A stretch of 64,000 bases of DNA. It comes from Deuterostichococcus epilithicus (lineage: Eukaryota > Chlorophyta > Trebouxiophyceae > Prasiolales > Stichococcaceae). This document shows positions 5-53,585 of this stretch, piece by piece. A program made the position numbers and the translations under genes. The notes beneath the pieces were generated by a model. It worked only from the letters and a program-made list of their open reading frames with translations, searched no databases and was not told the DNA's origin. Positions within the stretch are counted from its first letter, which is position 1, and every line of letters starts with the position of its first letter. Location of the stretch: contig JAVTLE010000011.1 of assembly GCA_033439295.1 (NCBI GenBank), positions 620,082 to 684,081 on the forward strand. The letters run 5' to 3'.

Positions 5-3000
5 ATGGCGCTCGCGCGCGTTGCCTTCGTGCTGATCGACGGCCTCGGCGATGTGTCCATTCCGGAACTGGGCAATCGCACGCCTCTGGAGGCGGCACAC
101 ACGCCGCACCTAGACGCCATTGCCGGTGGGCCATGCCGCAGCTTCGGCCTGAGCGCACTCACGTTTCAGCGCCACTCAACGTTCAAATGTCAGATGTGTC
201 GCTGCGTCACTATGTGTGCACACTCCATCCTTAGCCGAGGCGCAACATTTAAATCTGTGGGCGCCACGTGCGGCAGGGCTGATGCCCCAGGGCATGTTGA
301 GCCCTGGCGCCATCGCCAGTCTGCAGCCCGCCTTTGCCATCGTGTTATACTGTGCTGCAGCGGCGGTGCGCAGCGGACTGCTGGACCCTGCTGAGTCGCC
401 GGGGCCTGCCATGGCAGAGGCAGTGCTCTGCTGTTCCACCCCCAGCTGAGTTTTCGACACCGAAACGCCCTGCAGCGGCGGGCCATAATGGGCTGCTGGA
501 CCCTGTGGAGCCGGGCCTGGCGTGCGGCTCCGACACCGCGCACCTCTCCATCCTGGGCTACGACCCCCGCAAGTGCGAGGCCCTGCCACGCTTGACCGAG
601 GGACTGAGCACCCGTCACCTGGAAAACTGCCTGTGGATGGGTGGTCGTGATGACGGTCAGGAGCTTCCGCCAAGCCTCGCGGGTCGCTGTGCACATGTCC
701 TGATGTGCTGACGCGCTGACTGCGTCGGCTGAACTGAGTTCCCTACATCCCCGGCCCTGGGTGAGGAACGGGCAGGAGCTGCATCCTGGAACCGCCGCTC
801 CTGCGCCAGCACGGCCCATGACCTGACGAGCCAGGCATCAGCGAAAACATGTTGCAGCAAACTCGCTGCAGGTACTACCGGGGCCGGGGTGCCTTCGAGA
901 GCATGGGCGCGGGGCTGGCCATGGCGCCCGGGGACATCGCCTTCAAGTCCAACTTTGCGACGCTCGATACCGGCAGCGGCCTCGTGACCTTGCGCCGCGC
1001 CGACCGGCGGTTCGAGGACCTGGGCCCGCTCCTGTGTGCCGACCTCGACGGTGCGCCTGCGCTGCGCGTCTGTTGCTCTACCTGCGGGCCTCCTGGTCTA
1101 CGTCTCTTCTTGAGACAACGTGCAAAACACATGAAATGCTTAGTTTTGATTGTGAAATGAAAACGAAGCATTGGCCTAGGGGCTGCCCAGTCCAAGCTGG
1201 ACTTGGTAGCACCTGCCTGGCCTGCCTGTGGGCACGATTGGCAGGCCGTGCCCGCCCTTCTGCTTGCCCAGCCTGCCTGTGCGGGCGGGTCTGTCTGGCC
1301 ACGCCAGGCCCACCCTGTTCCAGTTGGGGTATGTGCAGCACGCGTTGACTGCGCCGCCCAGGCCACAGCCTGGCGGCGGCTGCTGCTGCTGCTGCTGCGG
1401 TGAGACGACACTGCCTAACGCAAACATACTACACACCAGACCTGCTGCTGCTGTCATTCTTCCCGCAGCAGGCCGGCGGCGTGCACCGTAAGCGCTTCCC
1501 CGCACAGCGGCCAGGCTGCAAACCGAGGCTGCCGTTATGTGTGACCCAAGCACTCAACCACACGCTGCGCGCCGCAGGGCTGGCGCTGCCGTCCTTCCCG
1601 CAGCACGCCGTCAGCGTGCGCTACGCGACGGAGCACCGCTGCGGCGTCGTGGTGCGGGGCCCGGGCCTCAGCGACGCCATCAGCGGCACCGACCCGCTCA
1701 AGGACAACCTGCCGCTGCAGGTGCCCCGTCGTTTCAGCGGGCCGTCCTCCCGACAGCACTTTCTCAACAGCTCGTTCGAGACTCCTCAGGAGGTCGTGTG
1801 CAGTAGGGCGCGTAGCATGACGACACACTGCAAGCATTGCCACCGAACCACTCGGGGACCAACCTGCCGCTGCAGGTGCCCTTACACTTGCAGCCCCAAC
1901 ATCTGCGCCTGTGATGCTGGGACTCGACTACTTCTCAGCAATGTGTGGGTAAGGGTGCACACTTGGACGTGGAGGTCCTACTTGGAGCTGGAGACGTGCA
2001 CCAGCTCGTTGAAGGACAGGCCTGCTGCCAGGGCGCCCGGTCTACATCGCCTCGTTGAACCTAGGCATCTTCTTCGTAAACCCTGGACCTGTTACTGTCC
2101 CTACTCACAACCAGGTGGGCGACATTGTACGAGGTATTTTTTTGACTCTCCTGCAGGTGGTGCGACCGCTGGACGGCAGCCCGGAGGCGGCGCACACCGC
2201 TGACGTCGTCAACGAGCTGTCTGCGGAGTTCCAGAAGGCGCTGGCGGGCCACACCATCAACGAGCAGCGCCGGGCGGAGGGCAAAAACCCCGCCAACCTG
2301 GTGCTGCTTCGCGGCTGCGGCTCCAGGTGTGTTGCTGCCACGTGCCTCTTCGAGAGCCTTGAGGAAAAGGGTGTGCAGCTTCTGAAGCGGCGACCCCGCC
2401 AAGCTGCGGCTGCGGCATCAGGGTGGGTCTTGACTTGCTTCCGGGGATCCTGCAGGAGATAAACCACGAAAGGGAAGATGAGTGGATTCGGGGCAGGAAG
2501 CCTGCCAACCTGCTGTTCCTGCGCGGCTGCGGTGCTGAATGTGTCGAACTTGAGGTCTGATGGAGACAGAGCAGACACAACAGACAGCCGTCAACCTGGG
2601 GCTGCTGCGCGTCTGCAGCTCCAGGTGTGGCACCGTTCGGAGCCCATCTTTCAGAACCCTTTGAAGGAGGCCCTTCCTCACAGGTATTCTCCAGGAACGC
2701 ACAGATGAAATTTGATGCGGCAGCGGATTGATGCAGCCTCCTGCAATGCAAACGACGTGTGTGGTGACGGCTCTGCCACTCAGTCGCCGCTTGCACAATG
2801 GTGCCCCGCGGTCACTGCCCTTGAACCACCTGCCGGTCTTCGTGCTGACAGCCTTCTCAGCCACTAAGCCCAGATGCTGAGCTTTCTCGGCTGGAGCGCC
2901 CGCAGGATCGCGGTGCAGCCCTGGGAGGACCGCCACAGGCGTGCGCACCGGACCGTGGCCGCTGGTTGCCATGGAATCGGACACCCGAAACCACTTGCAG

Positions 3001-24336: not shown

Positions 24337-25577
24337 GGAGGGCTGACGGCCACCGGGCTGCGGCACAACATGGCGATTGGTGCCGGCCATGCTGTGGCCA
24401 TGCTCTTCCAGCGACCTGCGGCAGCAGAAGTTCTGCTGCGCTCTGTAGCGCAATGACTGGCCGCACTTAAGGGGAATACACTGCCAGAACTCCCCAGCGG
24501 GTCGATGTTGAGGCCTGGCTGTGCCAGACGCGGCGACGTGCAGCAGCAGGACGCGGCAATGCGACCGCCTGTTGATTCGCGCATCCTCAGGGCGCACATT
24601 CTTGGCTCATAGGCTTTGACAGCAGTGACGGCAATGATGCTTTGTGTGCAGAATCTCGACGTGTCTAGCTGCGCGTTTGGTGATTTGTGATGTCGTAAAC
24701 CTTGCTCACTCGCAAATTGTGCATCCGTGTTCAGGACCGATGCAGCAGGAGAGCTGCGCTGTGCGCCCTGCGGCGGCAGCTCAGGCGGCTTGGTCGATTG
24801 CTTCGCCAGTGGTCAGAGTGGTGCAGCATCGTTCAATTGCGATAATTCAACTTGGTCACGTCGATACCAAAGCTGCAGTGTCCAGTACAATCTTGACGTT
24901 GTCAGGAACCTACCGCACTCCCCACACGAATGAGTCTGGCCATGACTCCCGCTTGGACGCCGGACAGCAGTGTGTTGACAATGACTACTTATCACTGAAG
25001 GGGCACAACCTTCTTCGCTGGGTTCCTGAGCGGCCAATTGAAACGCTGAGCTGGCACCTCGCATCAGATATGCATTGCACCCGGTTGCCGATCTTGCACA
25101 TTCATGTATTCTGGCGCCTGCCTGGGAGCATTGCCACATCCCTGCTGGGCAGAGCCTGGGCCCCTGCAGCCTGCGCCCCGCCAGGGCTGTCAGCGGGCGC
25201 TGCCAGGCTCGCCGCAGGTGCAGCCCTGGCTGCGGTGGCTGCAAGTTCCTGCTGCCGCGGCTGTGGCTGGTCTGCGGACCCTGACCTCCGCCGGGCCAGA
25301 GGCGGTGCGGCAACATCCGTGCTCCACCGCCTGATGGCGAAGCGCCGACCAAAGGCCTCCCGTAGCGCTGCTACTGCCGTCCTGGATCGCAGTCCGGACC
25401 GAGTGATGAGAGACCATCGAGGTGCACTCATGTGTGCTGGTTGTGCGCAGTCAACAAGAGTGTTGCTCCTTGCGCAGCGGACTTGCATGGCACCCGAGCA
25501 CTTGGCACAACAATCGGATTGCGCCAACACACGACACCGCATCAGGAGATCCCATCTTACAAACATGCCAGCGGGCA
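24337..25577. other. spacer between convergent genes
   Basis: It lies between the stop of the BTB gene and the stop of the membrane-protein gene. Long open frames occur on both strands (24644-25744 plus, 24599 downward minus), but they look like GC-rich chance frames with no recognisable domain. Confidence 0.45.
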
Positions 25578-27318
25578 TCAAGAAGCGGCAGGCTGTGGAA
25601 CTCCCGAGTTCGCGCACCATATCAGGTATGCAACGAACAGTGCCACCGGCAGCACAGCGTACGCGCCCAGCGCGCGCCACCGGCCCCAGTCGAATACATC
25701 ATACACCCAGTAATCGCGCACCGGCAGCCACACCGCCCACATGAATATGAGGTACACGGTGCCGTACAGCAGCGCCACCTACGAGCAGAACAAGTCTGAC
25801 ATCATCGGCTGTCAGTGCAAAATACGAAAATTGCGCAGTTTCTCAACGCCTGCTGACATACGAACATGGGCTGGCAGCCTCAACCTGCAGCTGCGTCCTT
25901 GGCACCCAGACCAGCGGGCAGCGTTGTCAAGGGGTGCTGGCGGCGCGCCTGGAAGTGGTACGACACGAAGGGCACCCTCGACAGCAGGACGTCCACCAGG
26001 ATCATCGCATTGTTTATGCCGTGCTTCAGGACGTTGTCGGCAGACACGTCGCCATCACCAGCCAGCGCTGCCCAGTAGAAACACTGCAGCGTCAATACTC
26101 CTCTCAGTGCCGAGCCCTCTCCATGGGGTTCAGGTGCGCATGGAGTTTGCGGTGCCGCACATAGCGTCGCACACTATGAAACGACGCTCACCGTGAGGAA
26201 CAGCGTCGAGCTGGCACTGGTTTCCACCACAAGCAGATAGAAGGCCTCCGGCCACGTCCACTGCAAGCCAAGGGTCTCAGCATGAGTTCAATCCGAAAGG
26301 GTGACTCATGTACCAAAGCCGTGCGATATGCAGAATCTTGTTAACTGGTGTGGCTCTCATGTGAGTGCTGTTAGCTGGACGAGCAGATTCAAGCCGTCAT
26401 CTCAGGCACACGTCGCTCCACCTTGCGGATGCAGGTGGCTGATGTGGCTGGCTGCGGCTGAGGGTACCTTTCATCCACCGCCGCCGCCGCCGCCTCCACA
26501 TCAGAATGCACCTGCTTCCGCCCCTTCCGGCGCACTGACATGCGCCAGACGGTGACGATGAACCCCAGAAGGCCGCTGAAGCCGTATACGCAGAATGTCC
26601 AGTCGGTGAAAAAACTGATCCATACATACCCCGGGCGCCCAAGCCCATTGCCTGCGGCAGCACACGATACCCTGTCGGGTGGGCATCCAGGCCATGACAG
26701 TGGCGTCGGCAGGAGGCTGCGATCCGCTTTTCGAATTGGTGGTTTGTAGAGGCAGCAGCATATACGGAGAAATGACTGTTTCGGAAACGCACGTGTTGTG
26801 TATCGCTCCACTAGCAGTTCTGCCGCAAAGTACAGCGCAATGAGCAGCCGGAAGCCGGCCAGGAACCACACCGGCACGAAAAAAGATGTTGTCTGCAAGA
26901 GCACCAGGCTGGAAGCCTTCAGGACTGGCCCTCTGTCGTCATGTGGGAAGACAGGCACTGCTGTAAAAGTTTGGGCTGAAGATTAACCAATGAGACAGCA
27001 CTCTGCGCTACCGCTTGCATCGGCACAGTCGCACCAAGTTGTCAGGATCGAGTGTGTCAAATGCCCAGTACTGATCAGGTCGTCGCTTCAGTCGCCTGCA
27101 ACAAATGATGTGCCAGGCATGAGACCTGTGCAGGCCCAACAGCGGATGGGCATGCCGCTAGGGCCGCAGGCAGTCTGTAAAGCAGCGCACCGGTTGCTGC
27201 AGAAGAAGAGCCTCGGAAGCGGACAGAATTTGCATAATAGGCTGTGCTCGTTGAGCAAGTAGGCTATAAGGTTTGCCAGCACTACAATTACACAAGCGAG
27301 CACCGCGGTCGCAATCAT
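25578..27318 (-). CDS. multipass membrane protein, FAR-17a/AIG1 or rolling-stone-like
   Basis: Minus-strand exons encode a chain of hydrophobic helices: LVLLQTTSFFVPVWFLAGFR followed by LLIALYFAAELLVERYTTR (about 26930-26800), YVWISFFTDWTFCVYGFSG then LLGFIVTVW (about 26630-26545), LQCFYWAALAGDG (about 26090), HGINNAMILVDVLLSRVPF (about 26020-25965) and VYLIFMWAVWLPVRDYWVY with AYAVLPVALFVAYLIW (25760-25600). The stop is TGA at 25578-25580. The FTDWTF, HG-N-MI-D-LLSR-PF and VYLIFMW pattern is typical of FAR-17a/AIG1 and rolling-stone-like proteins; some FAR-17a members hydrolyse lipid esters, but no activity is claimed here. The 5' end is uncertain. An exon ending DPDNLVRLCR could join the first helix exon through a GC donor (about 27020), and a hydrophobic segment at 27318-27240 could be the true N-terminus. 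Confidence 0.65.
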
Positions 27319-28132
27319 GTCCTAGAAACTCTCGTATACTCCCGCTGCAAGCCATGAATTCATGGTCGAACCCTTACACGTCTCCGAATACTGCTGCGTC
27401 AGGCGTTAGTGTCAAAACGACTGGGATGCACTCTGACCTCTCTATACAATCGCAGAAATGACGATTCAGTAGAGAACGTGCACTCAGCGACCAAGATTAA
27501 CGATAGTCTCGTATGCCTTATCTAAGCAGTCGACAGATTAGACTCGATTTTGCAGGCTTGGCTGGGCACAAAGGAAGCATCTAGCTTCCGGATGACTTCA
27601 GCAGTGTGCGGGCAGACACTTCTTCACTCCGAAGGTTGTGCCCACTTGCCTTCACTGCCTAACGACAATTGCTTCAGCTTGTGGCGCTTAGAGGTCTGAC
27701 TCACTCCCTGCGACGAGCTTTACACATGCATGGGCAGTGTCATCGACAGCGGGTGGTTTGGCGGCGACCCGCTTGACAATCGATCGCGCGTGTTCCAAAG
27801 CTGCACTGCAGCGGTTGAAAGACTTGGGTGGTGCACGTCGACCTTTCAAACTGAGGGTGCCACGCGAAGATGTTGACGTCACTACTCCAACGAGCAAGCG
27901 CTAGGTAGCCGGCGCACGGTGGCGACATGGACCATGAGCTTCCCTGTAAACAATGTGCCACGAACTGCGATTGCGGCTGTGCCCTCACCGATGCCATTCT
28001 TCTTCATCACTGACGATTGGGCACTGCAGGCTCCGATAAGCCTGTGGGGGCGGCCGCCTCGCAGGTGTGAGCCGCTCCAGCCCATTTTCATCTTTCTGGC
28101 ACTAGACCCTACTGAACTAAGCCGACACTGGA
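27319..28132. other. spacer between two minus-strand genes
   Basis: More AT-rich than the flanking genes. It should contain the membrane-protein promoter and the 3' end of the RRM gene. I see no supported exon or repeat. Confidence 0.45.
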
Positions 28133-31100
28133 CTACAAGTCGTCGTACACCACCAGCGCGCGGCGCGGAGGCGGGCGTAGCTCCACCTCTGCGAGCGCTT
28201 CCGGGTCAAAGGCGTCCGCCGCCGCCTGCGCCGCCAGCCGCGCCTCCCGCACCTGCGCTCCACCGAAATGAGATCTCAAATGAGATCTCAGAGGGATGAC
28301 CGCATGGTTCGATGGTGAAGGAGACTCGCAGAAGTCGCCTGCAACAGGCCGAGCGCCGTCCACAAGGAACTCTGTGCGCCTGCAGTCGATGCGAGCACTG
28401 CGATGTGGAAGCCCTCCGGCACCACCGCCACTGCCAGCAGCCCGCCCCGGCACAGCACTGGGCATTGCAAACTGCTGCCTCGTTGAGTGTGACGCAGCGT
28501 CGCCAGCAAGTTCTGCTGCAGCTGTGCGCTAAACATACATGCGTCCACGAAACGACTCAGCCGCCCTGTGCACAGCTGCTCTTGCAAGAAACATCCATCA
28601 TACGCGCTCGTACTGGTCGTACTGCTTCATGCCGTGGTACCGGCATCGGCAAAACACTGTACAGAACTGTTCCAGCACAACATGCTGCAATGTCCGCCTG
28701 GTTGCTCGTACCTTGGGGTGCTCGTACTGCTCCAGGCCCGGCACCGGCACTGGCTTTGCCATCTGCGACCCTTGCTGCGTGGCAAAGGGTTCGGCCAACT
28801 GGTGAGACTTGTGCCTCGGTTCACATGCTGCCCAGCGCAGGCGCGGACGGGGTGCTGAGCAACGAGCCACAGCACGAGATGTGTCAGCAAGCGCCAGCTC
28901 ATTGTGCGGCCGGCCACGGGCTCAGCAGCACATGCGAGAGCAGGCTGGCACGGAGGCGTCCGCAAGCGGCAGCGCGGCTGCACGCCAGGCTCATGCAGCA
29001 GCATTGCAGCGTCGCAGGCACTTCTCGAGGCGTCCTCGTGGCGTGCACCTTCCACTCGGGCAGCTGTCCGACGGCCCAGTTGACACGCAGCTGCCGGCCG
29101 CCTTCCACCTCCAGCGGCGCCAGCTTCTGCCTCTGCAGCAGCAGGCAGTATGCTGTGGGCCTTGCAGATTTTGCAGGTGTATGTGCAGAACTTCGGAAGA
29201 CGCTTTGCCGGCCGCCCGTCCACCGCCAGCGGCATCACCTGCTGCCTCTGCAGCGGCGTTGCAAATCTCCGAGTCTGAGTTGCGCCGGGGCCAAACATAG
29301 CATACGATTAGGCTGCACACACAGCCGGCAGCTCTGTGCTTGGCCGTCTCGAGGGGCTGACACAGAAGCAGCCGGGGGCATTGATGGCCGGGCACAAGGT
29401 ATTGGGTGCTGCCCGCCTGCAGCAGACAGGCAGGCGACAGGCGAACCACAGGCGAAAGCGCAGCCCACCAACAACGACTTGGCTGTTCAGGATCCAGCTA
29501 GACTGGGAATGTAGGCCCTAAACCCTGAACCCTACTCCCAGGTCACGCACCTCCATGACGGCGGCAGCGGCGTCAGGCGATGCGAATCGCACAAAGGCGT
29601 AGCATTGGGTGCCGACCACGCGGGCGTTCTCCACTGCCGCCAGCTCAGCAAACACCTGCATCCGGGATATAGGACGTTGACGCTGTGAACAGATGGGGCC
29701 TATACTGTGGTTTCCTGAGCAGGACGAGCGCATCTCAAGTGGTACATCAGGCTGGTGCTGCCGAAAAGGCTGCCATGCAAGCTGCCGGAGGTTGCGACAA
29801 TGGCGCACCAGAAAAGAGGCGATCTGCCGGCCGAGTCGTTGTCTGTATCTCTCTTGCTTTTCAGTTGGTTACAGCAGCAGAGCCACAGCTCGAGCTCGAG
29901 AGGGCATATAGAGGACGCTCGCCTCGTGGACGGCCTGCGAGTCGTAGTGCGGAGGCAGGTCGCCAACAAACAGCGTCGACTTGCGGCCGTCGTCCTCCTC
30001 CTCCCTGCACACGAAGGCATCGACCATGAATTGTGAATGGGTTGTGAGCCCGCACAGCGAGGAATCGGCTCGGTGCAATCTAAAAGTGGCCAATGACACA
30101 TAAGCTTGCTCAATGTGCAGGCTGGAGGTCCGTTCTTGCCATCACACTGGCACCGCCGCCGGCCGGATCCATGCAAATGCCTGCGCATTGCACAGCCGCA
30201 TGCACAAAGTGACGCTCGCTACTGCGCCCCAGCCTCGAGGGCGGCCGCTGGCAGCGAAGGCTCGGCAGGCCGCATGGGGGAGATGTGTTGCCGCAGCGGC
30301 AACGCACCCCGGGTCGACGCCCCGGTCGCGCTCGTGCTCGTGCGCCCAGCCACCCTGTGCCCCCCGGTCTTCCCTCGGCTCGAAACGGTTGCCGCCGCCG
30401 CCGCCGCCGCCGCCACCGCCGTCACTCCTCGGCCGTTTGGCGGTCTCGGCGTCCCGATGCGGCGCCGGCCGGTGGGAGGTCGGTCGCTTGTGCGCCGGCC
30501 GCTTCGGCGCGCCGTCTGCAGCGCCGCCGCCGCCGCCCCGGCGGTCCTGCTGCTGCCGCGCCGCCTGGTGGAGCACAGGCGACAGACTCGCATGCAAGGT
30601 GATGTCGAAAGAGACCGCAGTCGGTCGGCAAAGATGCACGGCACCAGGCTGCAGGCCGGCAGCAGGGCGCCTCAATGCATGCCGTACGAAGCTGGCTGTT
30701 GCAACGCGGAGCAGCTCAGCATGTAAATCTGCATTGCAGAAACGCCGGGAAAGCGGCAGCACCTGCTGGGCTGTGACAGCGCGCTGCCGCACGTCCTGCT
30801 GCGATGGCACGGCTGCGTCGGCCGCCCGGCCGGCGTCGCCGCTCGACCTGTCTGCCGGGCTGTCGCGCGCGTCGGAACCCCTCGCGCCGCCGGCGGGCCT
30901 GGCCGCCGGGGCGCGCTTCGGGATAGTCGGCTGCCTGGCAGCANCGCCCGGCGCGGCAGCGGCCGACGCGGCGGCCGGCCGCCGCGTGGCGGCGGAGGCC
31001 GCTGACGGAGTGCCTGAGCCGCCGCCTGACGCCGTCCGCTTTGCCGCCAACAGCTGCAGGGCCGCGTTGATGGTTTCTTTGGGCTCTCTGATGGTCAAGG

Positions 31101-31837
31101 TTTCAGACCCCATTTCAAACATGCAGACCATGTGGTCATACGGCTATTCGGTAAATTCAGGCGCAGTCGCAGTGCTGCACCCTGCAAGCATTGGGGACCC
31201 CCTCACCCGGATGGCGCGCTCTTTGGCGGTCTCGCCGGGCACCTCTGGCGCAACGGGCGCCGCAGACTTTACCTTTGCCGCAGCCGGCGTGCGGCTGGCT
31301 AGCGCTGCTGCACCGGAAGGTTTCGGGGTCACGGGTTCGCTTGAAAATGCAAAGGGGTGACGTCCAGCGTTCAACAGCGGCGGGTGATGGACGAGAGCAT
31401 CTTTCTAGAGCGCCCCGGCACAACAGCGCAGGCTTTCATGAGACTCTGCTGACTCGCACCTGCCGGCTTCTTGGCAGGCAGACCCAAGGGGAGGGCAGCT
31501 GGTGATGCCGCTGTAGGCGCTACCGCCGCTGCTGGCTGTTTGCTGGGCTGCTCTGCCTTGCCCTCCTGCTGCTGCTTCGCCTTCAGCTTTGCTTCCTGCA
31601 GCCCGGAAATGCCCAGCTGAGGCGCATCAGAGTGTGGCGCACAACACACCGTCGCAACTGGAGTCTGTGTGGAAAGCGGTCGGAAGAGGCACCGAAAGCT
31701 TGGCTATCGAAAGGTTGCGAGCCATGAAGCATCCTTGAATGAGGCACGCCACAGCCAGGTGTGCGTCGCACCTTCTTTTTGCGCAGCTCCTCATACTTGC
31801 GCTGCAGAGCCAGCTCGGCCTCCGTCTTGGGAGCCAT
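28133..31837 (-). CDS. RRM-domain RNA-binding protein
   Basis: Start ATG 31835-31837 gives MAPKTEAELALQRKYEELRK, a coiled or basic N-terminus. Next comes an Ala/Pro/Lys-rich region (about 31620-31200: KLKAKQQQEGKAEQPSKQ, AAAKVKSAAPVAPEV), a block with TIREPKETINAALQLLAAKR (about 31090), and a long disordered stretch with a run of glycines and Arg/Ser/Pro/His (30560-30300). The RRM follows: RNP2 is STLFVGDLPPHYD (about 29980), RNP1-like is QCYAFVRFASPDAAAAVME (about 29600), and the closing strand is GRQLRVNWAVGQLPEW (about 29070). Downstream exons are less certain and end with ALVVYDDL and TAG at 28133-28135. A single N interrupts the codon run at 30945. I cannot assign a specific spliceosomal or mRNA-processing role. 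Confidence 0.72.
29517..29540. repeat. short interstitial telomere-like repeat in an RRM-gene intron
   Basis: The plus strand reads ccctaaaccctgaaccctac, i.e. CCCTAAA CCCTGAA CCCTA, close to the plant and green-algal telomere unit (TTTAGGG on the other strand). It lies about 15 bases inside the intron that follows the RNP1 exon. It is too short to be a chromosome end. Confidence 0.6.
30385..30422. repeat. GCC run encoding polyglycine in the RRM protein
   Basis: Nine or so gcc triplets with one gcc-to-acc change. On the minus strand this is the GGC run that encodes about ten consecutive glycines in the RRM protein's disordered region. Such runs are length-unstable. Confidence 0.7.
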
Positions 31838-32531
31838 ATTATGGCAATGCGGGTCTCCCTAGACTGCCGTGCAGTCGTGTATGCTCCTTGCAAGAGGCGC
31901 CAGGGTGGGCCAAGGATGGGCAGGCACGAAGGCTTCCCTGGCTGCGCGTGCTAGCTTGCTACACGCCGCTCCTCCTACAGATCACTGCATGTATTTGCAT
32001 GAGAGATCTGGTCGACGCGAATGCACATATGTACGCGATGGCCGCCTCGAGAGCGGGCTGATAAATGCCGGAACCATGGTCATTCAGCATCTGCATCACA
32101 ACATTCAGGCAGTTGTGGTTTGCAAGCTGCAAGGTTCTCATCACAATGCAGATTTTAGTCAGGAGCGCTCTGTCATCATCAATAGCTGCCGCGCCCGTTC
32201 CAAGCCTACTCGAGAGTGGCATCGCAGCTTGGTTCCTCTAGCACCGGCTCAGCACTGCTTGGCCGACAACTCTCGCACCAAGCCTGGTTACATGGCTCCC
32301 TCCCCCAGACTGCCACGAGGATGCCCAACAGTCCACACTTTCGACAACAAACAAGTGTGCGCGCGTCGCCACTGAAGGCTGCGCAGCCAGATCCATATAT
32401 TTAACCATCGCAGTAACGCTCTCTTTGCAACGACCGCAGCTATTCACAAGTAGGTTGACCCAGCTGAGCAGCTCGGAAGGCCGTGCTTGGCACTCCGCCT
32501 CACGGGCACACGCAGCACCGCAGCCGCATCA
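31838..32531. other. divergent promoter region, RRM gene and UFL1
   Basis: 694 bases lie between two start codons on opposite strands. It must contain both core promoters. I see no clear TATA element that I would defend and no additional exon. Confidence 0.5.
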
Positions 32532-35500
32532 ATGGCGATGGACGAACTGTCGCTCGATGACCTGCTGGGCCAACTGGCGTCTGCGCAGCAGGAGAAGCCC
32601 AAGGTGAGATCACGGCTCACGGGATCCTTTTCTCTGGCGCGCAGCGCGCATGCCGATCCGCGCTTGGCTCGTGCGTCGGCATGTGCTGTCGCCATCTCCA
32701 TATGTGGCGGTTGTGGGGCGGGCATCAGTAGCACGGCCAGCTCATTGGCATCGCGGCTCTGCTGTGTCGAATCGAAGCAACACACGCCTACGCGTACAGT
32801 GAGAGCAGCAGCCGACCGCCACCCGCGCACGTCAGTACCTCACGCCCCAAACCCCACATGTGCCCCCGCGGGCAGGTGCGGCTATCGGAGCGCAACGTCG
32901 TGGAGCTGGTCAACAAGCTGCAGGCGGCGCAGCTGCTGGGGCCGGACCTGCTGCACTCCATCAACGGGCGCGAGTACCTGACGGTGGAGCGGCTGCGCTC
33001 GGAGGTGCAGGCCGCTGTCGAGTCCTCCGGCGGCCGCATCCCCGTGGTGCGCCGCCGGCAGCGCCTGTTGATTGGGATCCCACCTGGAACCTGCGACATC
33101 ACTTCCTCCTGTGTCTTGTCAAGGAACTGAGGTCCGAGGCGCCGTGGAGGTCGCTGGGATCCGCATCCCGGCGGTGCAAATTCGTGATTCGAACTTCCTG
33201 ACATCTTCTGTTAGTTTACTTTCAGGTTTGACTGTTAAGAGTGACTCTTTACCTGCCACACTGGCAAGAAATTGAGGCGAGGCCGATGCTTTCTACCACT
33301 TCAGGACCGTCATGTGCCTTCAAAAGTGGAGTCAAGCTGACCGCAGGTGGATCTCCCGGCACTACTGGGCGTAGACCTGGTGCACTGCGAGCGGCAGGCA
33401 GGCGCGGCGGTCGCAGGCTCCGGCGGCGCGCTGCAGCTGGTGCAGGGGGAGCTGGTGGCGACCAGCTACTTCGATGCCCTCGCCGCTGAGGTCGCCGACT
33501 CGTTACAGGCACGCAGGGCGAAATGGGGAATTGGGTGTGCGGATATTGGTCCATGTGTTGCATGAGAAGGCCATTGCCCACCAGGGAGGGAGGGTGCCGT
33601 GCGCCTCAGAAGCTTTGATGGCACTTGGCGACATTGAGACGGCACCTGCCGCCACGAATGCCGGCTGCTGCCGTTCCCTGGCAAAGGGGTTGTGCCAGAA
33701 CACCATCCTGAGCACCATGTTGCCAGAGAGCTCCTGGGCAATCAGTTTTGTATGCCGGCATGACAGCGCGGGCACAAACGTCGCCGCGGACCTGCTGCTG
33801 TCTCGGAGGTGCCCCTGGCGTGTTTCACATGCAATCCTGCAGGAGGCGGGCGCGCCGCAGACGGGCGACACCGCGCTGCGCGGCCCCGCTGCTATGGAAA
33901 TGATCGTTGCGTCATACCCCTTCGTGCAGGAGGCGGGCGCGCTGCAGGTGGGCGACATCGCGCAGCGCACCCGGCTGGGCGTGGACCTGCTGCGCCCGGT
34001 GCTGCAGCAGCGGCTGGGCTCCGTCATCCCCGGCCGCCTGGAGGGCGGCCTGCTGTACACCGACGCCCACATCGCCCGCATCCGGGTGCGCACATCGGCA
34101 GGCAGCCGCCGCGACGCCCTGGGTCACGTGGATGCACGGGCAGCCTCTCGAGCAATGTGCCAGAGTGGGCCTTTGTGGACACCGAGGAGCCGAAACACGT
34201 GTGACTTTGGGGTCACGGCATGCCCGGCCATGCAGCGCCAACCTCCTCCTCCCTCCCTGTACCAGAGTGGCACAGCTGGACGGGAAGTGAAGGAGAGAGT
34301 CAATGCGCAGGCACGCCTGTGCCTGGCGCGGCGCGCGGCACCCTGGCGCCGCTCAGCACGCCCAGCCAGGCTAAAACCCTTCCCTTGCCGAGTCGACCAA
34401 CCTTTTGAATGTCGAGACGTTTGAACCTCAAATTTTGTGCAGGCGAGGGTGCGTGGCGCGGTGCGTGGCGCCCTGACGCCGCTGAGCGTCCCCAACCTCG
34501 CCAAGACCCTGCGCCTGGACGCGGGCGGCGGCGGCGCGGGGCCCTCCCTGGGCTCCATCATCGAGGAGCTGGCGGCGGCAGGGGAGATAAGCGGGGCCCT
34601 GCGCGGGGGCGGCAGCACCTGGGTCCCTGCCGTGCATGCGCGGGCGCAGCAGGCGTCGGTGCTGGCGTTCTTCAGGTGTGCATGGTCAAGGTCATCGTTT
34701 TGAACACACCCCTGCAAGCCCTCCGTTGCAGGCTGACGATGGGCTCTGCACTGTGACGGGCTGCACACTGCGAGTGATGCCGGAGACTCCCGCGCCAACC
34801 GCGAGCGAGTCTGCAAGTCTGGCGTCGACTAGGCTCCTTGAAAGTTGGAGCTGATGCTGGTGCTTCGGCCAGCAGCTGCAACAAGCTCATTCGGCAGCAG
34901 TGGGCTGCTGACACACGAGATCCTGCTCGGCGAATGTCCCCCGTCGCATTGCCCGTCAATGCTCCTATCGACGCGACGCAATGTCCGGCAGCAACCAAGT
35001 TTATGGTGTTGCCGCCCGCGCCACGGGCAACATTGGCGTCGCCAACCCGCAGGCCCATCTGAACAGTGTCCATACTACTTCCCAGTCATACATATGCCCA
35101 CCTGCGCCGCAGCCAAAACAGAGTCATGGAGTACGCCGCCGTGAGCCGCATGGGCATCAGCGACCCGCGGGGCCACCTCCAGGCGGCGTTCCCAGACGGC
35201 ATCGCGCTGCATAGCTGCTTCGTCGGTGGCGAGCTGGCGGCGCAGGTGGATGTCGCAGCGGAGGAGGCACTGGCGGCCGGCTCCTGGTGAGGATGTCAAC
35301 AATGTGGACAGGAGTGGCACTTGCGGCCGGCTCCTGGTGAGGCGCTGCATGGGTAAGGAACAGCTTGTGAAGGGATGCCGCTGCTGCGCCGCTGATGCGC
35401 GAGGCCAGAGATGGCAATGTGGCTTTGGACTGTGCTAGCAGAGTGCCCATAGGGATAGGAGTGCAGCGAAAGCGGGTGGGGCTGCTGAGAGGCTGAAAGC

Positions 35501-38500
35501 TTGCGAATGTATCGCTGCAGCAGCACCTCTCGACCTTTCCCGGGTTGCTGCCTTTGCTGCAGGGTGGACGTGCAGCCGCTGCTGCCGGGCGCGCTGTCCG
35601 CCGAGGATGCAGCGGAGCTGCTGCAGCAGTGTTCCTCGGTGCGGCGCGCCTTTCCTGCAAACACGGGCACCGGCACTGGCGGCGGCGGCGGCGGCGGCGG
35701 GAGCTCTTCGACACAAACTACAACCGAGGCGTCCACTTTCGTCAGCGGCACCTGCGCCGCCAGCGGGCGGCTGGTGGCTGAGCTGGCGGAGCGGCTCAGG
35801 GGCGTCGCCAGGGTGGCGGCCGAGGAGCAGCAGCGGCAGCGCAAGGCGGCCGCTGGCGGCGGCGGCGCTGCTCCCCCAACTGCGCGAGGTGTGCCGATAC
35901 ACCTTGCACCCCCTCTGCGAAGGCAACTGTCATGCACCTTGTGCGGGCTGTCGACACAGAGATTTCTGTGGCTATGGAATTCCGTCAACATCGCCGGCAG
36001 AGATTGACCACACAGCTGAAGCTGACAGCAGTCGCAGCTCGGCCACCCTCATTCTGTGGCGTGTGGCTCCTTTCATTCCAGCCCCAACTGGCTCGCGCTT
36101 TCCGTTTGTGGTTGGAGTCCGACACTGAACCCTCGTCATATCTTCACTGCCGCAGGCGCTGGCAAGAAGGGTGCAGTGCCCGCGGCCGCCGCGCCGGCGC
36201 CGCCACCCGCCGGCTCGGACAGCGACGACGACTGGGGGCGCGGCGGCAGGGGCGGCAAGGGCAAGGGCGGGAANGGGGGCAAGGGCGGAAAGAAGGGNGG
36301 CGGCAAGGCGGCAACGGCGACCAGTCAGAAGGCAGCGCCAAGCAGCGGCGGCGGCGGCAAGGGTGGCAAGGGAGCTGCAGCTGCCCTTCCTGACAACGTC
36401 ACGAGCAAAGCGCTCAGCATCAGCGCCATTGCGGCAAAGATCCTGGAGTGGCAGCCTGGGATGGAGGAGTCAGGTGTGCAGCAGTGTTGCGACCTCAGGC
36501 ACAGCGGGGTTTCTCATTTTCTCTGTGCACTCAAATACTTGCATCCAGCATGCCTGCTCATTCGTTCACCGTCGGCAGGGGAAGCGGGAGTCTGCCGCTT
36601 TAAACAGACTGGCAGTGCTAGCGCCGAATCAAAAACCCATCGCATTTTTGCCCTACATCGCCTGTTCTCGAAGCTGGCGCGGGAGCTGGCCTTGCAGCTG
36701 CGGCCAGAGATCGTCGCGGAGTTCCTGAAGCCCATCGTTCCTTGTACCAAAACCAAAAACGCATTATATGTGTGCACAGAGCGGCTGGCACGCGAGCTGG
36801 CGGAGCGGCTGCGGCCGGGCGCGCTGGCGGAGTTTCAAGCGACGCTGACCGCGGTGTTTGCGGCGGGCGCCGAGGCTCGGCGGCGGGCGCGTGATGCCGC
36901 CGGCGTGGCGTTGCGGNNGGCCGCAACGCGCTTGGAGCTGCTGGCGCACGGCGCCGAGGTGGGCGGCGCAGCACGGGAAGGGGCAGCGCCTGGGGGAAGG
37001 GGGCGTGGACAAGGGGAAGGCCGCTGCTGTGTCACGGGCCCAAAGGAGGGCCCGGCAACAGGCTAGGACTAGGTGCCAGGGGGGGTGTAATGCTGACTCT
37101 GAAGCTTGTTGGTTCAGCGACAAAGCGAGGCTATGGCCAAGTGCTAGCGACAGAATGCTTGCTTCTATAGCTTGCTGATTTCTCTGAAATGCACACGGCT
37201 GCAGGCGGCTGCGGGCGATGACGTGGAGCTGGCGGCAGTGCTGCAGCGCCACCTGCTGCGCGGCGCCGGCGCCGAGGCCGTTGACGCGCTGCTGCGCTTC
37301 CATGTGAGCCTCCTTCCTTCCTCGTGTGCTTCCCAGCACTGGCTCTGCTTGCTGGGTACGTTCTGGCGCTGCAGCAGTAGAGTGCATCAGGATCTGCCTG
37401 CATCATACTGCGAGACACAATCATGCCAGCACAACATGCCCGCGACTTGCCAGCTTTTCCTGAGGCCAGCTTTCCCACCTAGTATGGGGTCAAAAGCGAC
37501 ACCAGCTCAGCATTTGATATATCAATCGTGCAGGAGACGGACCTGCAGCGGGACGTGGAAGCAGCTTCCGACGCCGTGGCGCCGCAGCCACTGGCGCCTG
37601 CGGAGCGATCTGCGCTGGTGCGGCGGCTGCCGCCGGACGTGGGCCCGGCGGCGTCGGCGGCGGTTGCCGCCCTGGGCGGCACCAGCGCGGAGGTGGTCAC
37701 CGGTTCGGACACTCAACAGATAGCGCACGCCGCCCTGTGCTCCTGCCATCGGCAATGCATCTGTGACAGCTGCACTGATGCGGGAGAAGGGGAGCCAGCA
37801 GACGGCTGTCGTGGACAATGCCGTGCAGTCCCACCAGCAGACTGCCGCGCCCTGTCGCCGCAGGAGCTGCTGGCGGCGGTGGAGGCGGCGGCGGAGGCCG
37901 GCGGCGCACGAATCAAACGGCTGGACAAAAAGGGCGAGAGGCGTGAGGTGGCGGCGCACGTCAAGTCGCTGGAGGCAGCGCTGGCTGCAGAGGCGTCGCC
38001 GGCGGCAGCGCTGTCGCTGGCCGTGCCCTTGCTGGCCGCCAGGGTGTGTTGCTCGGTTCATTTCCTGCCTTCTGCCCTGAAGAGCGCCATGAAGGACAAT
38101 TGGACCCCCCAATGGCATGCCGCACCGCTGGCCCTGCTCTGCAGCCCATTGCTTCAAACGACGCCATCATCATCACGTCTGTTTGATATGCCTGTTGCAT
38201 ATTGCGACTGCACTGCTGCACAACACTGCAGGTGTGGGGCAAGGCTGTCAGCCTCCCTGGCCGCGCCCTGTCCCCCGCGCTGGAGCGCCTCAAGGCTGCC
38301 GGCATGCCCGACACAGACCATGCGGCGCTGGCCGATTTCCATGCAAAAGTGGTGGCTTCGCTAACCAGCGGCGGCACCGGTGATGGCTCCGAGGAGATTG
38401 ACGAGGAGCTGGCGGGGGCGCTGTCAGGTCTCAAGCGCCTGGCGGGCGTTGGCAGCTGCGACGGCATCAGCAGAGGTGAAGGCAGAGCGGCGAGCGGCGG

Positions 38501-38591
38501 CGAAGGCGAGGTAGAGACAGCTGCTGGCGGCGAGGGCGTTGTTGGCCGTAGCACTGATGCAGAGGTCACTGCGGGCAGCACGCGACATTGA
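32532..38591 (+). CDS. UFL1: UFL1, E3 UFM1-protein ligase 1
   Basis: Acts with UBA5, UFC1 and the DDRGK1 adaptor at the ER membrane to attach UFM1 to ribosomal and other targets. Start ATG 32532 (MAMDELSLDDLLGQL). Exons: 32532-32603, 32876-33043 (RLSERNVVELVNKL, INGREYLTVERLRSEV), 33347-33508 (VDLPALLGVDLVHCE, SYFDALAAEVADSLQ), 33930-34085 (GALQVGDIAQRTRLGVDLLR, GSVIPGRLEGGLLYTDAHIA), 34443-34675 (LTPLSVPNLAKTLRL, GSIIEELAAAGEIS), 35122-35288 (EYAAVSRMGISDP, SCFVGGELAAQVD) and 35563 onward (VDVQPLLPGALSAEDAAELL). All follow the winged-helix series of animal and plant UFL1. A Gly/Lys-rich disordered segment with ambiguous bases (36170-36390) precedes C-terminal helical exons (about 36777, 37205, 37535, 37863 and 38232 to the TGA at 38589-38591). 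The exon ending SLQ appears to use a GC donor at 33509. Introns contain shadow exon copies, listed separately. Confidence 0.92.
33838..33885 (+). pseudogene. shadow copy of UFL1 exon 4 start
   Basis: Bases from 33838 (caggaggcgggcgcgccgca) repeat the acceptor and start of real exon 4 at 33927 (caggaggcgggcgcgctgca). The following ggcgacaccgcgctgcgc matches ggcgacatcgcgcagcgc. The copy stops matching after about 45 bases, so only an acceptor plus exon start was duplicated. Confidence 0.85.
34305..34385 (+). pseudogene. shadow copy of UFL1 exon 5 start
   Basis: The stretch gcaggcacgcctgtgcctgg continuing to ccaggctaaaacccttccc matches the real exon start at 34439-34515 over about 75 bases. The real exon reads LTPLSVPNLAKTL; the copy would read LAPLSTPSQAKTL. 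It includes the acceptor and retains protein-level similarity, so it could once have been an alternative exon. Confidence 0.8.
35308..35342 (+). pseudogene. shadow copy of UFL1 exon 6 end with its donor
   Basis: The exon end gcactggcggccggctcctg and donor gtgagg (35268-35293) recur 50 bases downstream as gcacttgcggccggctcctg gtgagg. The donor copy is intact, giving a possible alternative 5' splice site. Confidence 0.85.
36170..36390 (+). repeat. glycine/lysine-rich low-complexity segment of UFL1 with ambiguous bases
   Basis: Repeated ggcaagggcgg units encode GGKGKGG-type sequence. N bases at 36274 and 36298 show the assembler or base caller struggled here. UFL1 proteins normally have a charged disordered stretch at this place, so the position fits. 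Confidence 0.7.
36655..36735 (+). pseudogene. shadow or alternative copy of a UFL1 C-terminal exon
   Basis: KLARELALQLRPEIVAEF (from about 36670) is followed 120 bases later by RLARELAERLRPGALAEF (from about 36783). Both are open. Which is spliced in cannot be told from sequence; one may be an alternative exon rather than a relic. Confidence 0.75.
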
Positions 38592-38799
38592 CAGCATGGC
38601 AATAAGCAAACCGACTCTGAAGAACTGGTTTAATGTTGCAGCAGCTCCTGCAGAGTTAGTCTTTTTCTTGCAGTGCGACCCGATTCAAAGCCGTAAGAAA
38701 TGACACGTCTTTGCAATGGCCATCGTCGCTGGTCAGCAAGCAATCACCGCGCAAGGCAGACCCATTGCAGTTTGAATATGCCACAAACTTACCTAACCT
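38592..38799. other. short spacer between UFL1 stop and the duplicated tail
   Basis: The UFL1 3' UTR is expected here. Nothing else is recognised. Confidence 0.4.
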
Positions 38800-39870
38800 C
38801 AACTCGCCAGGTTTTCCTGAATACAAGCCATGTGGCCCATGTAGTATAGGGTCAAAAGAAACAACAGCTCAGACTCTAGCCGCAGGACATGGATCTGCGC
38901 CGGGATGGCGAGGCGGTGTGCGACGCCGCAGCGCCGCACCTGCTGGCGCCGGCGGAGCTATTGGCGCTGGTGGGGCGGCTGTTGCCAGACGTGAGCCCGG
39001 CGGCGGCAGCGGCGGTTGTCGCCCTGGGCGGCGTCAGCGCAGAGGTGGTGATCATGGCGGGAAAAGATCGATGCCGCGTGAAATGCATGCCTCCCTGTGC
39101 CCCGCCATTTGCTCCGTGCACAGCAGCGGTCGCTGCAACCGATGCAAATGAAGCCATCCTGCAGAAGCCTGTCGTACGAATTGCCACGCAGATCCACGAG
39201 CAGATTGCCGCTCTTGTCGCTGCAGGTGCTAGCGGCCGTGGAGGAGGCGGCGGAAGTCCATGGCGCCCGCCTCAGGCGGCTGGGAAAAGCAGGGGCGAGG
39301 GGCGAGAGGTGGCCGCAGACATCAGATCGCTGGAGGCGGCACTCGTTGCAGAGGCGTTGTCAGCGGCGGCACTCGTTGCAGAGGTGTCCTCAGCGGCGGC
39401 ACTGTCGGTGGTCGTTTTCTTGCTAGCTGCCGAGCTGAGTAGCTGCATCCCTTACCTTTATGGCACCGGGAAGGGCGCCGTAAAAAATCACTCATCCCAA
39501 TGTCTTAGAGAAGAGGAAGGTAACGCTGCAAAGGACGCCAGAGCAGCTTCATTCTGTTTCTTGTGCCTGTTGCCCAACGCCGTGGGGCAACGCCGTGAGG
39601 CTACCTGGTCCTGCCCTCTCACCGACCCTTGAGTGCCTCAAGGCTGCTGGCATCCCTGGGCAACGCCATGCGGCGCTGGCGGACGTTCATTGCAAGGCGG
39701 TGGCTTCCCTTACTGGCGGCGGCGGCGGCTCTCAGCAAAGAGAGGAGGACCTCGCAGTAGCGCTGTGAGGGCTCGAGCGCCTGGCCACTGGGGCGGCGAC
39801 GACCCCGGCGGAGAGGACAGCAGAGTGGTGAAAGGTGGCGACGGCGAGGGGGGAAGGCTCCTGGGGGAGA
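38800..39870 (+). pseudogene. tandem duplicated, decayed copy of the last three UFL1 exons
   Basis: About 1.07 kb repeats 37440-38440. The copied intron end reads agtatagggtcaaaagaaac (parent agtatggggtcaaaagcgac). Copy exon A from 38889 encodes MDLRRDGEAVCDAAAPHLLA then LPDVSPAAAAAVVALGG (parent DLQRDVEAASDAVAPQPLA). Copy exon B (39227-39432) encodes VLAAVEEAAEVHGARLRRLG, then continues in another frame as REVAADIRSLEAAL, so it carries a frameshift near 39285. Copy exon C encodes TLECLKAAGIPG and KAVASLTGGGGG, with an in-frame TGA at 39765 where the parent has TCA. The copy also contains a 36-base internal repeat (39340-39410). No upstream UFL1 exons accompany it, so it is most likely a pseudogene fragment, though transcription by read-through is possible. 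Confidence 0.85.
39336..39412 (+). repeat. imperfect 36-base tandem repeat in the UFL1 tail copy
   Basis: The unit gcggcactcgttgcagaggc with ttgtcagcg is present about two and a half times (39337, 39373, 39405). It has no counterpart in the parent exon, so it expanded after the duplication. Confidence 0.7.
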
Positions 39871-40184
39871 CGGGGCTGTCGGCGGTGCCACAGAGGCAGA
39901 CCTTCGGCGACGCTGACAAACAAGCAACGATGCGCAAGGCAGCAGTGGACAACTGCTTCAATTCATTACTGCAGCTGTTGCAACGTTGCTTTTGTTGCAG
40001 TGTGTGAAGACAACGTCGCAAGCAATGATTGTTCGTCACCAAGCTGACACCGTGCAAAGTCGCCACAAATATCTTCACAAGGCATGCAGGAGCTACCTAG
40101 AAGGAGGTATCGGGCATCCATTGTCTGTCCTGGAGGTCGCCGATCATGCAATCTGTTGTAGAGAATTGCAAAGTTGTTGTTGTG

Positions 40185-52290: not shown

Positions 52291-53585
52291 TCACAGAATG
52301 ACTCTGTCCCAGCTGACGGCCGCCAGAGCCTTGACTAGGGTCACCACGATCGTACGATCCTTTCCAGAGCCCTCTGCTGGCGATGACAACCAACCGTCAG
52401 TGTAAGTGGGCATGCAGAAAGGACAATGGACAGCTTTCCATGCTGCAGACCGTGCAGGCTGTGCCACACAAGCTCTCAGACATGTGAGAACAAAGTGGAG
52501 TTCAAATAACCCAAAGTGATTGTGCGTCGCTTACCAAACTGCCAGCTGCACTCCTCGGCATGCACTGGCCGATTTAGGCGGCCATCAATGATGCATTCGC
52601 CTTTCACGCTGCGCAAACACATGCGCACAAAGCATAACGTGAGCTGAAGTTCGGATATGGACGACAACAGCTGCTTTGAAAGCATAGAAGAGTGATGCAG
52701 AGACGATGCAACGGAAACCTGTGAGATGAGGTGGTTGCAACCAACCTGAGCGCCAGATATGTTGGCTCAAACTTGACGCGCACATCCTTGGCGCTCTCCA
52801 CATCGCTGGCGATTTCCAAGACAACGTCTGTCTCGTCCTCCGACCAGCACCACCGATCGTCCGACCCTGCGCGGCGTGCACAGCGTTCAGACAGCTCGCA
52901 GCGGAGAGTGCCTATCGCGAGGCGGCAGCTGTATCACTGCGAAGGGCCCACATTGTTGAGTCAGCAGCGTCGTTGCGCTGCGGTACCGAGGAGCTGCAGC
53001 GAGTGAAGCGTGCCCCTCTGCGCACTCTGCTGAAGTCTAGCAGCGTCGTTGCACTGCAGCACCGAGCAGCCTCATCGAAAGGAGTGTGCACCTCTGCGCA
53101 CTCTGGCGCTGGCGTGCAGCGTGCTGACGCCGCGCACCGCAGCGGGTTCCAGCTCCTGCTGCGCGGCTCCCGTGTCTGCGGCGCCACCTAGCTGCGCTGC
53201 CTTGGGGGGGCCGCGTGCAGGTGCGCCGGCAGCCGCCGCGCCGTCGGCCTCAGGTGGCGCGGCGGCGGTGCCGCTTGCGTCTGTGGCATGCGGTGGCGCC
53301 TGCCATCTGCTGTCTGCGCTGGTGTCCGCCTCATCATCTTGCTCTGCGGCCTGCGGCGACAAAGCTGTTTGTGCAAGCGACTTAGCGGGAACTCCTGCAC
53401 AGAGACCCTCCGCCAAGCGATGCAAACGGCATTTTTGCTGCACGCGCCGCACAGCGTTTGTATCACGTCTTGCTCACCTTCGTCTGCTGTCGGTGTCTCC
53501 GCAGATAGATGCCTGCGCCTACTGCTGTCACTCCGACGGCTGCTGCAAACAGAAGCCGCTTGTCCACGCCGTTCAGGCGCTCCAT
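52291..53585 (-). CDS. membrane-anchored CS-domain (p23/NudC-like) protein
   Basis: Exon 1 (53478-53585, ATG 53583-53585) encodes MERLNGVDKRLLFAAAVGVT then AVGAGIYLRRHRQQTK, one transmembrane helix followed by basic residues, so the rest probably faces the cytosol. Exon 2 (from about 53360 down to about 53093) is Ala/Pro/acidic linker (AAEQDDEADTSADSRWQAP). The exon starting near 52866 encodes DDRWCWSEDETDVVLEIAS and VESAKDVRVKFEPTYLALRL, the first strands of a CS fold. SVKGECIIDGRLNRPVHAEE with CSWQFG follows (about 52610-52535). The last exon encodes KDRTIVVTLVKALAAVSWDR and ends VIL and TGA at 52291-52293. CS domains bind HSP90-type chaperones or assist folding; a membrane-tethered co-chaperone is the natural reading, but the partner is unknown. 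Confidence 0.75.
52963..53107. repeat. 76-base tandem duplication over a splice donor of the CS gene
   Basis: Two copies, 52963-53038 and 53039-53107, both beginning agcagcgtcgttgc and ending near cctctgcgcactctg. On the minus strand the copy nearer the exon carries the donor (gcgcagag|gtgcac), while the other has gcgcagag|gggcac and so has lost the GT. It is the same kind of exon-junction duplication as elsewhere in this window. Confidence 0.85.

Follow-up and report, generated by a model that had tools for sequence, protein, structure and literature searches.

Decayed copies of exon edges in the neighbouring introns of UFL1 and other genes of the green alga Deuterostichococcus epilithicus

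Introduction

Exon sequence is found repeated within an intron when a whole exon has been duplicated in tandem, as in mutually exclusive exons. Internal gene duplications are reportedly common in eukaryotes, some of them including introns (Gao and Lynch 2009, PNAS 106:20818), and Vaughn and Bennetzen (2014) are said to treat small tandem duplications coming from break repair. Here, we describe a related pattern in a stretch of 64,000 nucleotides (the window) of contig JAVTLE010000011.1 from the green alga Deuterostichococcus epilithicus, where the gene UFL1 carries decayed copies of its own exon edges inside its introns. We call a decayed copy of an exon edge inside the neighbouring intron a shadow.

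Several described processes come close to this pattern. Duplication inside genes and the gain of introns through tandem duplication are both established processes in the parts of three papers on which we draw (PMC4974935, PMC3443670, PMC2891723). In the portion of the Daphnia study used here, internal direct repeats from staggered breaks lengthen new introns and fade with age (PMC4202315). The break-repair work, in the section concerned, describes small, direct and adjacent tandem duplications of tens of bases (PMC8355091). Finally, in Chlamydomonas and the volvocine algae related to it, introns are long relative to genome size, with an advantage given as unknown and a driving mechanism given as likely ancient in the part of that source considered (PMC8226300).

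Results

UFL1 junctions with shadows and a duplicated tail

The gene and its copies are located in the window as follows.

32532..38591, + strand: UFL1 (E3 UFM1-protein ligase 1) gene with 13 exons, from an open reading frame of 860 amino acids, Pfam and the homologue P0001
+ strand: UFL1 exons 1-5, at 32532-32603, 32876-33046, 33347-33508, 33930-34085 and 34443-34675
+ strand: UFL1 exons 6-9, at 35113-35286, 35563-35888, 36156-36473 and 36780-36958
+ strand: UFL1 exons 10-13, at 37205-37303, 37534-37695, 37864-38043 and 38232-38591
33835..33891, + strand: shadow of the exon 4 start with its acceptor, TCCTGCAG followed by 49 nt of exon copy; period of 87, to 33922-33977
34304..34390, + strand: shadow of the exon 5 start with its acceptor; period of about 130
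35302..35342, + strand: shadow of the exon 6 end with its donor, GTGAGG intact; period of 50, copies 9 nt apart
36673..36731, + strand: partial shadow of the exon 9 start; period of 111
38802..39900, + strand: decayed tandem copy of the UFL1 tail (exons 11-13 with introns); period of about 1,355

With the curated 13-exon model, 4 of the 24 UFL1 junctions had a shadow that outscored every one of 2,000 control introns (p = 0.0005 each), and the four sites named in a preliminary description of this DNA were thus found to be real. The core of the exon 4 shadow (33843-33891) is identical to the exon at 41 of 49 positions, while its further intron flank was not homologous in a controlled flank test (p 0.95). 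The exon 5 shadow has a core of 48/62 (34319-34380) within a longer alignment of 34304-34390 to 34436-34521. For exon 6, a core of 20/21 (35316-35336) runs into the intact GTGAGG donor, and the extended pair is 35250-35292 and 35302-35342. The fourth site, with a core of 27/33 (36673-36705) and an extended alignment to 36784-36840, had been taken for a repeated exon; the copy is there, but only the first part of exon 9 was copied.

The tail duplication of about 1 kb that had been reported together with these sites was also recovered. It pairs 37445-38563 with 38802-39900 and covers exons 11-13 with their introns. The exon 12 match changes reading frame in the middle of the copy, and the exon 13 copy holds an in-frame stop. 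A 30-bp minisatellite of 2.3 copies lies in the dead exon 12 copy (window 39335-39403). When 32532-38600 was used as a query against its own genome, the matches listed were the UFL1 gene itself and the tail copy only.

The identification of the gene as UFL1 stood as well. The Pfam family PF09743 (E3_UFM1_ligase) matched exon by exon in a profile search, and the best homologue, P0001, reached 69% identity across 94% of the query, and 72% in the alignment. The 860-aa protein matched green algal UFL1 proteins, those named including Trebouxia, Micractinium, Myrmecia and Parachlorella. The P0001 alignment contains no insertion at the shadow sites and backs the exon edges of the model, except at the start of exon 6, which it shifted from 35122 to 35113 with nine extra nucleotides there. 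In this homologue-supported model, intron 3 apparently uses a GC donor (TTACAG|gcacgc, window 33505-33515). N bases occur in the coding sequence at about 36260-36300, in a glycine-lysine rich stretch, and at 36910-36920 in exon 9.

Exon-edge copies are in excess in a 224-kb sample

We then extended the analysis to 224 kb of the 46.8-Mb genome (21 contigs), made up of the window, 100 kb of contig C1 (the C1 sample) and six 10-kb stretches. Gene models beyond UFL1 were obtained with a hidden Markov gene finder seeded on UFL1 alone, which placed 20 of 26 UFL1 exon edges exactly and predicted 53 genes with 428 exons and 377 introns. We kept 356 of these introns (at least 60 nt, with both exons) and tested 685 of their 712 edges, exon pieces below 25 nt being dropped. 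A junction was counted as matched when it aligned to its own intron better than to all 200 control introns of the same genome. This was the case for 36 of the 685 junctions (14/341 donors and 22/344 acceptors) as compared with 3.4 expected, meaning that about one exon edge in 20 has a decayed copy in the neighbouring intron. At a score of at least 40, 16 junctions matched the intron and none matched the reversed intron. In the window, 10 near self-matches (less than 2 kb apart) scored at least 50 as against no far ones. An annotation-light scan for local direct duplications with a period of 30-400 gave 46 pairs, while three shuffles gave none.

For all further lists we used 32 of the 36 matches, the four scoring below 28 being dropped. 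The ends of these matches are tied to splice sites, lying at most 12 nt from the junction in 22 of 32. The preliminary description had suggested a genome-wide tendency of short duplications to centre on splice junctions. The exon-intron excess that it called for is present in our sample, as is the tie of match ends to splice sites, and neither of the two outcomes that it named as refuting was seen there. Its interpretation is partly supported: a duplication process that is itself junction-centred may, but need not, lie behind the pattern.

The 32 matches were spread over 14 of 50 genes, the other 36 having none. Four genes with shadows could be named: UFL1 and, by Pfam, SelO, a protein kinase and serine hydroxymethyltransferase (SHMT). 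Shadows clustered by gene (permutation p 0.0002, or 0.0003 when weighted by intron length), with 7 of 31 junctions in the kinase gene (L015 868-9123) and 5 of 22 in the SelO gene (C1 sample 25484-32261). An intron of the kinase gene also holds a dispersed repeat of 39-63 nt (L015:7428-7490; G000:C3:307428-307490); of the 22 genomic matches listed for the L015 query, 12 fall on it, from both strands and several contigs. Introns with shadows were longer than those without (median 355 vs 256.5 nt, p 0.002), although the added copy itself lengthens the intron, and about 4.8% of the sampled intron bases lie between a junction and its outermost shadow. Some shadows in UFL1 and SHMT were mistaken for exons by the gene finder.

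Two other shadows are found in the window.

1841..1881, + strand: shadow of an exon end with its donor (GTGCCC identical), in intron 1721-2156; above all 200 controls, with a 35-nt core at 86%
29206..29257, - strand: shadow of exon-start sequence 29092-29142, in intron 29153-29546; 52 nt at 85%

Shadows are direct, local and diverge as noncoding sequence

Shadow copies are direct. Inverted matches were found at 1/341 and 1/344 junctions with 1.7 expected in each case, and the nearest non-adjacent introns of the same gene gave only a small excess (3/250 and 6/253, about 1.25 expected each). Because inverted matches are at chance and non-adjacent introns show only this small excess, copying is direct and chiefly local, that is, into the adjacent intron. 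Most exon-edge copies have a period of roughly 80-350, and 16 of 22 anchored copies sit 49-91 nt from their own real exon edge. Several introns contain two copies, which we call arrays. The spacer between shadow and exon matched the distal exon in none of 22 tests, and periods showed no bias to multiples of three (4/22).

The splice dinucleotide, GT or AG, was kept in 15 of the 25 shadows that lie within 6 nt of the junction (8/12 donors, 7/13 acceptors). At exon-internal shadow ends, AG or GT was not clearly above background (8/11 vs 0.48; 5/13 vs 0.42). Shadow identity was mostly 75-95% (5-25% diverged), with 2 of 26 matches at 92% or more. This shortage of very young copies could reflect reversal, assembly collapse, shadows called as exons or a past burst. 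Mismatches between shadow and exon at codon positions 1, 2 and 3 were 0.111, 0.137 and 0.231 (60/542, 74/542 and 126/546), as expected for a neutrally drifting shadow and a real exon changing mainly at third positions. The alignments contained three stops, and 8 of 42 had a net frameshift. Codon changes comprised 134 nonsynonymous and 84 synonymous ones; the synonymous share of 0.39, above the 0.21 of random mutation, is as expected for constraint on the real exon only.

A few young pairs keep the copied intron flank

The clearest young pair was located in the SHMT gene (C1 sample 98228-98430), where it surfaced while checking for shadows miscalled as exons by the gene finder. Its copies share 52/53 exon bases and 29/33 intron bases ungapped, at 94% identity and with a period of 117, of which 31 nt are unmatched without gaps (flank p 0.014). 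In this shadow the acceptor is intact, there is a pyrimidine-rich tract, and a TGA stands in frame right after the copied 53 nt; judging from the sequence, occasional use of this acceptor would give a truncated product. The gene itself (G000:C1:496944-499951, L014, minus strand) has shadows at an acceptor, one young and one older, and at a donor, the array being placed at about 498,200-498,660 of G000:C1. In a second pair, C1 sample 9780-9912, the copies are 1 nt apart and the intron flank is homologous (p 0.004). The third lies in the window.

52959..53105, - strand: tandem pair straddling an acceptor; period of 75-76, copies 3-4 nt apart, intron arm homologous (flank p 0.005)

The last two are spaced head to tail (1 and 3 nt), and the UFL1 pair at 35287 nearly so (9 nt), while the other spacers were mostly unalignable. 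With intron-flank controls on five extra pairs, 2/5 were homologous at p 0.05. These controls drew from all introns including the tested one, and their p values err high.

Simulated tandem duplications and the ratio of junction to intron-only pairs

For exon sequence to reach the intron through a tandem duplication with the exon left intact, the duplication must straddle a junction, and the exon copy then starts at that junction. We simulated tandem duplications placed at random, letting the shadow drift neutrally and holding the exon under constraint. At the best-fitting of 12 settings, the match began with a gap of 0 from the junction in 0.44 of cases (0.42 observed), with a median identity of 0.82 (0.84 observed). 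Random tandem duplications therefore reproduce the anchoring, and junction centring alone is no sign of a special process.

With equal indel rates in introns and exons, contiguous tandem duplication fitted the exon side, while the intron flanks and the ratio of junction to intron-only matches both failed, and this version was rejected. We also rejected a copy-filler-copy structure from a staggered break with random placement, which predicts a junction to intron-only ratio of 0.2-0.7 against 8.7 observed. When introns were given indels at 5-8 times the exon-derived rate per substitution, the model produced a flank similarity of 0.15-0.26 and a ratio of 5-16 (0.21 and 8.7 observed), two of ten settings fitting both. 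The flank loss and the rarity of intron-only pairs would be explained in this model only if introns take indels much faster than exon-derived DNA. In the UFL1 tail duplication, introns showed 0.21-0.52 indels per substitution and exons 0.08-0.18, which puts introns ahead by about 2.5 to 3 times.

Noncoding-only tandem duplications were short (period 32-59) and mostly young, as at C1 sample 33362-33423, 37996-38026 and 62743-62778 and at L016:5342-5377.

Discussion

Origin of the shadows

We consider it rather probable that each shadow is the fossil of a short direct (tandem) duplication straddling a single splice junction. In such an event, with a period of mostly 50-350 bp, the intron would come to carry the exon edge and its splice site a second time. 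The original junction would still be spliced to give a normal mRNA, the intronic copy presumably not being spliced in, and the event would be near neutral and could persist. The intronic copy would then decay neutrally while selection holds the real exon. The exon half of the pair would diverge only slightly more than half as fast as the intron half and stay recognisable long after the intron half is lost, and a surviving match would appear to begin exactly at the junction. Arrays would build up where one junction was hit repeatedly. A break-repair or replication event probably lies behind each duplication. The freshest examples look like junction-spanning tandem duplications, and we infer the same origin for the older shadows, in which the similarity of the intron flanks is gone.

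Several results weigh against this explanation. Equal indel rates predict similar intron flanks in 0.69 of pairs when 4/19 were observed; flanks were similar in only 5/22 (anchored) or 4/28 (unanchored), and most older shadows, those of UFL1 included, have no recognisable copied intron flank. The UFL1 tail duplication, with lower exon identity, keeps 4/5 intron arms by local alignment and 2/5 when anchored. At the same score, junction matches outnumbered intron-only matches by 26 to 3 (8.7), where equal decay predicts 1.4 to 1, and the annotation-light scan held 36 exon-containing and 2 noncoding-only pairs (period of at least 50, three shadow-to-shadow pairs removed). A variant of the model with filler between the copies leaves this ratio unfixed. 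The spacers observed never matched the distal exon in our 22 tests. The indel-rich model predicts matches of about 62 nt when 41.5 nt was observed, and the indel factor of 2.5-3 measured in the UFL1 tail falls short of the five to eight that it requires. Among double arrays, excluding two with shadows short of the junction, the two shadows had similar intron arms in 4/7 (anchored p at most 0.01). The real junction, by comparison, had an arm like that of a shadow in only 2/14 pairs, both from one array (anchored p at most 0.015). Adjacency obtained by lenient realignment at UFL1 33838, the older SHMT copy and L018 failed the flank controls (p 0.95, 0.07 and 0.72); these realignments had no control of their own, and under the same lenient scoring a stretch of another window gene could be aligned over its whole length (158/262). 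Finally, young copies (below about 0.1 substitutions per site) are expected at 0.7-0.95 junction pairs per noncoding pair, and we counted five to eight junction pairs against two noncoding ones (rough Poisson p 0.003-0.05), a small count that hinges on the identity and length cut-offs. This ratio is suggestive of exon edges as hot spots, not proof.

Alternative explanations

Much of this contrary evidence would fit duplication truly targeted to exon ends or splice junctions, with edges made fragile by transcription, splicing or exon-positioned nucleosomes; we regard this as a tentative, somewhat unlikely alternative. Short exon-edge segments with their splice site would be copied about 50-90 nt into the intron, often without the intron body. 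The preponderance of exon-containing over noncoding-only local pairs, the mostly non-homologous intron arms next to those retained by a true long duplication such as the UFL1 tail, the spacers of 49-91 nt that do not match the distal exon and the surplus of young junction pairs all point this way, as does the clustering in the kinase and SelO genes. On the other hand, the best young pairs look tandem-like, and intron flank forms part of the copy in them (SHMT, C1 sample 9780-9912 and window 52959-53105). The ratios are recovered by decay models with indel-rich introns once copies have passed an age of about 0.1 substitutions per site, and the choice of young pairs counted is a matter of cut-off. 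A related reading, in which exon edges are duplication hot spots and breakage coupled to transcription or splicing repeatedly copies the junction into the intron in certain genes, appears to us somewhat unlikely as well. If it were true, a measurable share of intron length (the 4.8% or so of sampled bases given above) would be built from neighbouring exons.

Shadows acting as decoy splice sites or poison exons, under selection to tune splicing, would agree with the splice dinucleotides kept in 15/25 and with the young SHMT shadow and its TGA. We find this very improbable: divergence is neutral-like, with stops and frameshifts, the dinucleotide is lost in 10/25, which is about the share under neutral decay (kept in 0.61-0.77 in simulation), AG or GT at exon-internal ends is not clearly above background, and the periods are not frame-preserving. 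An artefact of assembly (interleaved haplotypes), of gene prediction or of GC-rich codon composition is a fainter prospect still. The window does contain 5 N bases in 64,000, and we relied on one gene finder seeded on one gene; against this stand the same-genome control introns, the reversed introns, the unshuffled excess in the annotation-light scan and the homologue-supported model of UFL1, and copies that are partial, sometimes two to an intron and mostly 5-25% diverged are unlike haplotypes. Least credible is an origin of the copies in spliced mRNA, as cDNA patches, or in mobile introner-like elements. Such copies, too, could be bounded near junctions, but no match at the 32 junctions examined covered more than 5 nt on each side of an exon-exon junction, the copies keep intronic splice dinucleotides, and UFL1 had no listed genomic match besides its own tail copy; this genome test for introner-type copies covered the UFL1 and L015 genes. 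Further candidates were discarded: inverted template switching, as inverted copies show no excess; tandem duplication of exon sequence alone, its distal part having become splice signals, given the 0/22 spacer result; mini-exons, the splice motif at exon-internal edges not being clearly above background; and dispersed repeats, none of the 22 listed matches of the L015 query (query included) lying within a spacer.

Comparison with known systems

Junction-straddling duplication would be a countable route by which algal introns lengthen, and the shadows may show one way of intron growth. The pairs are self-dating, as the exon side times the event and the intron side records the decay of the intron. 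They can also mislead gene prediction, as happened in UFL1 and SHMT. A search of the literature by title and start of abstract, with most subscription papers outside it, gave no match for introns strewn at such a frequency with decayed copies of their own exon edges.

In tandem whole-exon duplication, the entire exon is copied, whereas here a partial copy diverges as noncoding sequence; the shadows are not complete copies, do not keep the frame and do not show the synonymous divergence of a duplicated exon. Internal gene duplication, as far as the sources drawn on go, resembles our case in producing short duplications inside genes, some containing introns. Here, however, neither new introns nor intact duplicated exons are seen, but decayed partial exon edges within existing introns. 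Intron gain by tandem duplication (the AGGT model), in the parts of PMC4974935, PMC3443670 and PMC2891723 concerned, shares with the shadows redundant splice sites and a coding sequence restored by splicing. No new intron is formed in our case, and the shadow lies beside its own junction where the model, as set out in those parts, requires the far intron end; with 16/22 anchored copies at 49-91 nt from their own edge, a copy of the downstream exon start was not found at the intron start, nor one of the upstream exon end at the intron end. The duplications of break repair, in the portion of PMC8355091 considered, are likewise direct, adjacent and tens of bases long and would be a sufficient source for shadows; that portion concerns new events at induced breaks and does not deal with splice junctions. 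Daphnia neointrons, according to the portion of PMC4202315 drawn on, offer the likeness of direct repeats within introns that lengthen them and fade with age. Their exon-intron repeats are of 4-12 bp and lie at opposite ends of young introns, while those of D. epilithicus are of about 20-90 nt and lie near the same junction.

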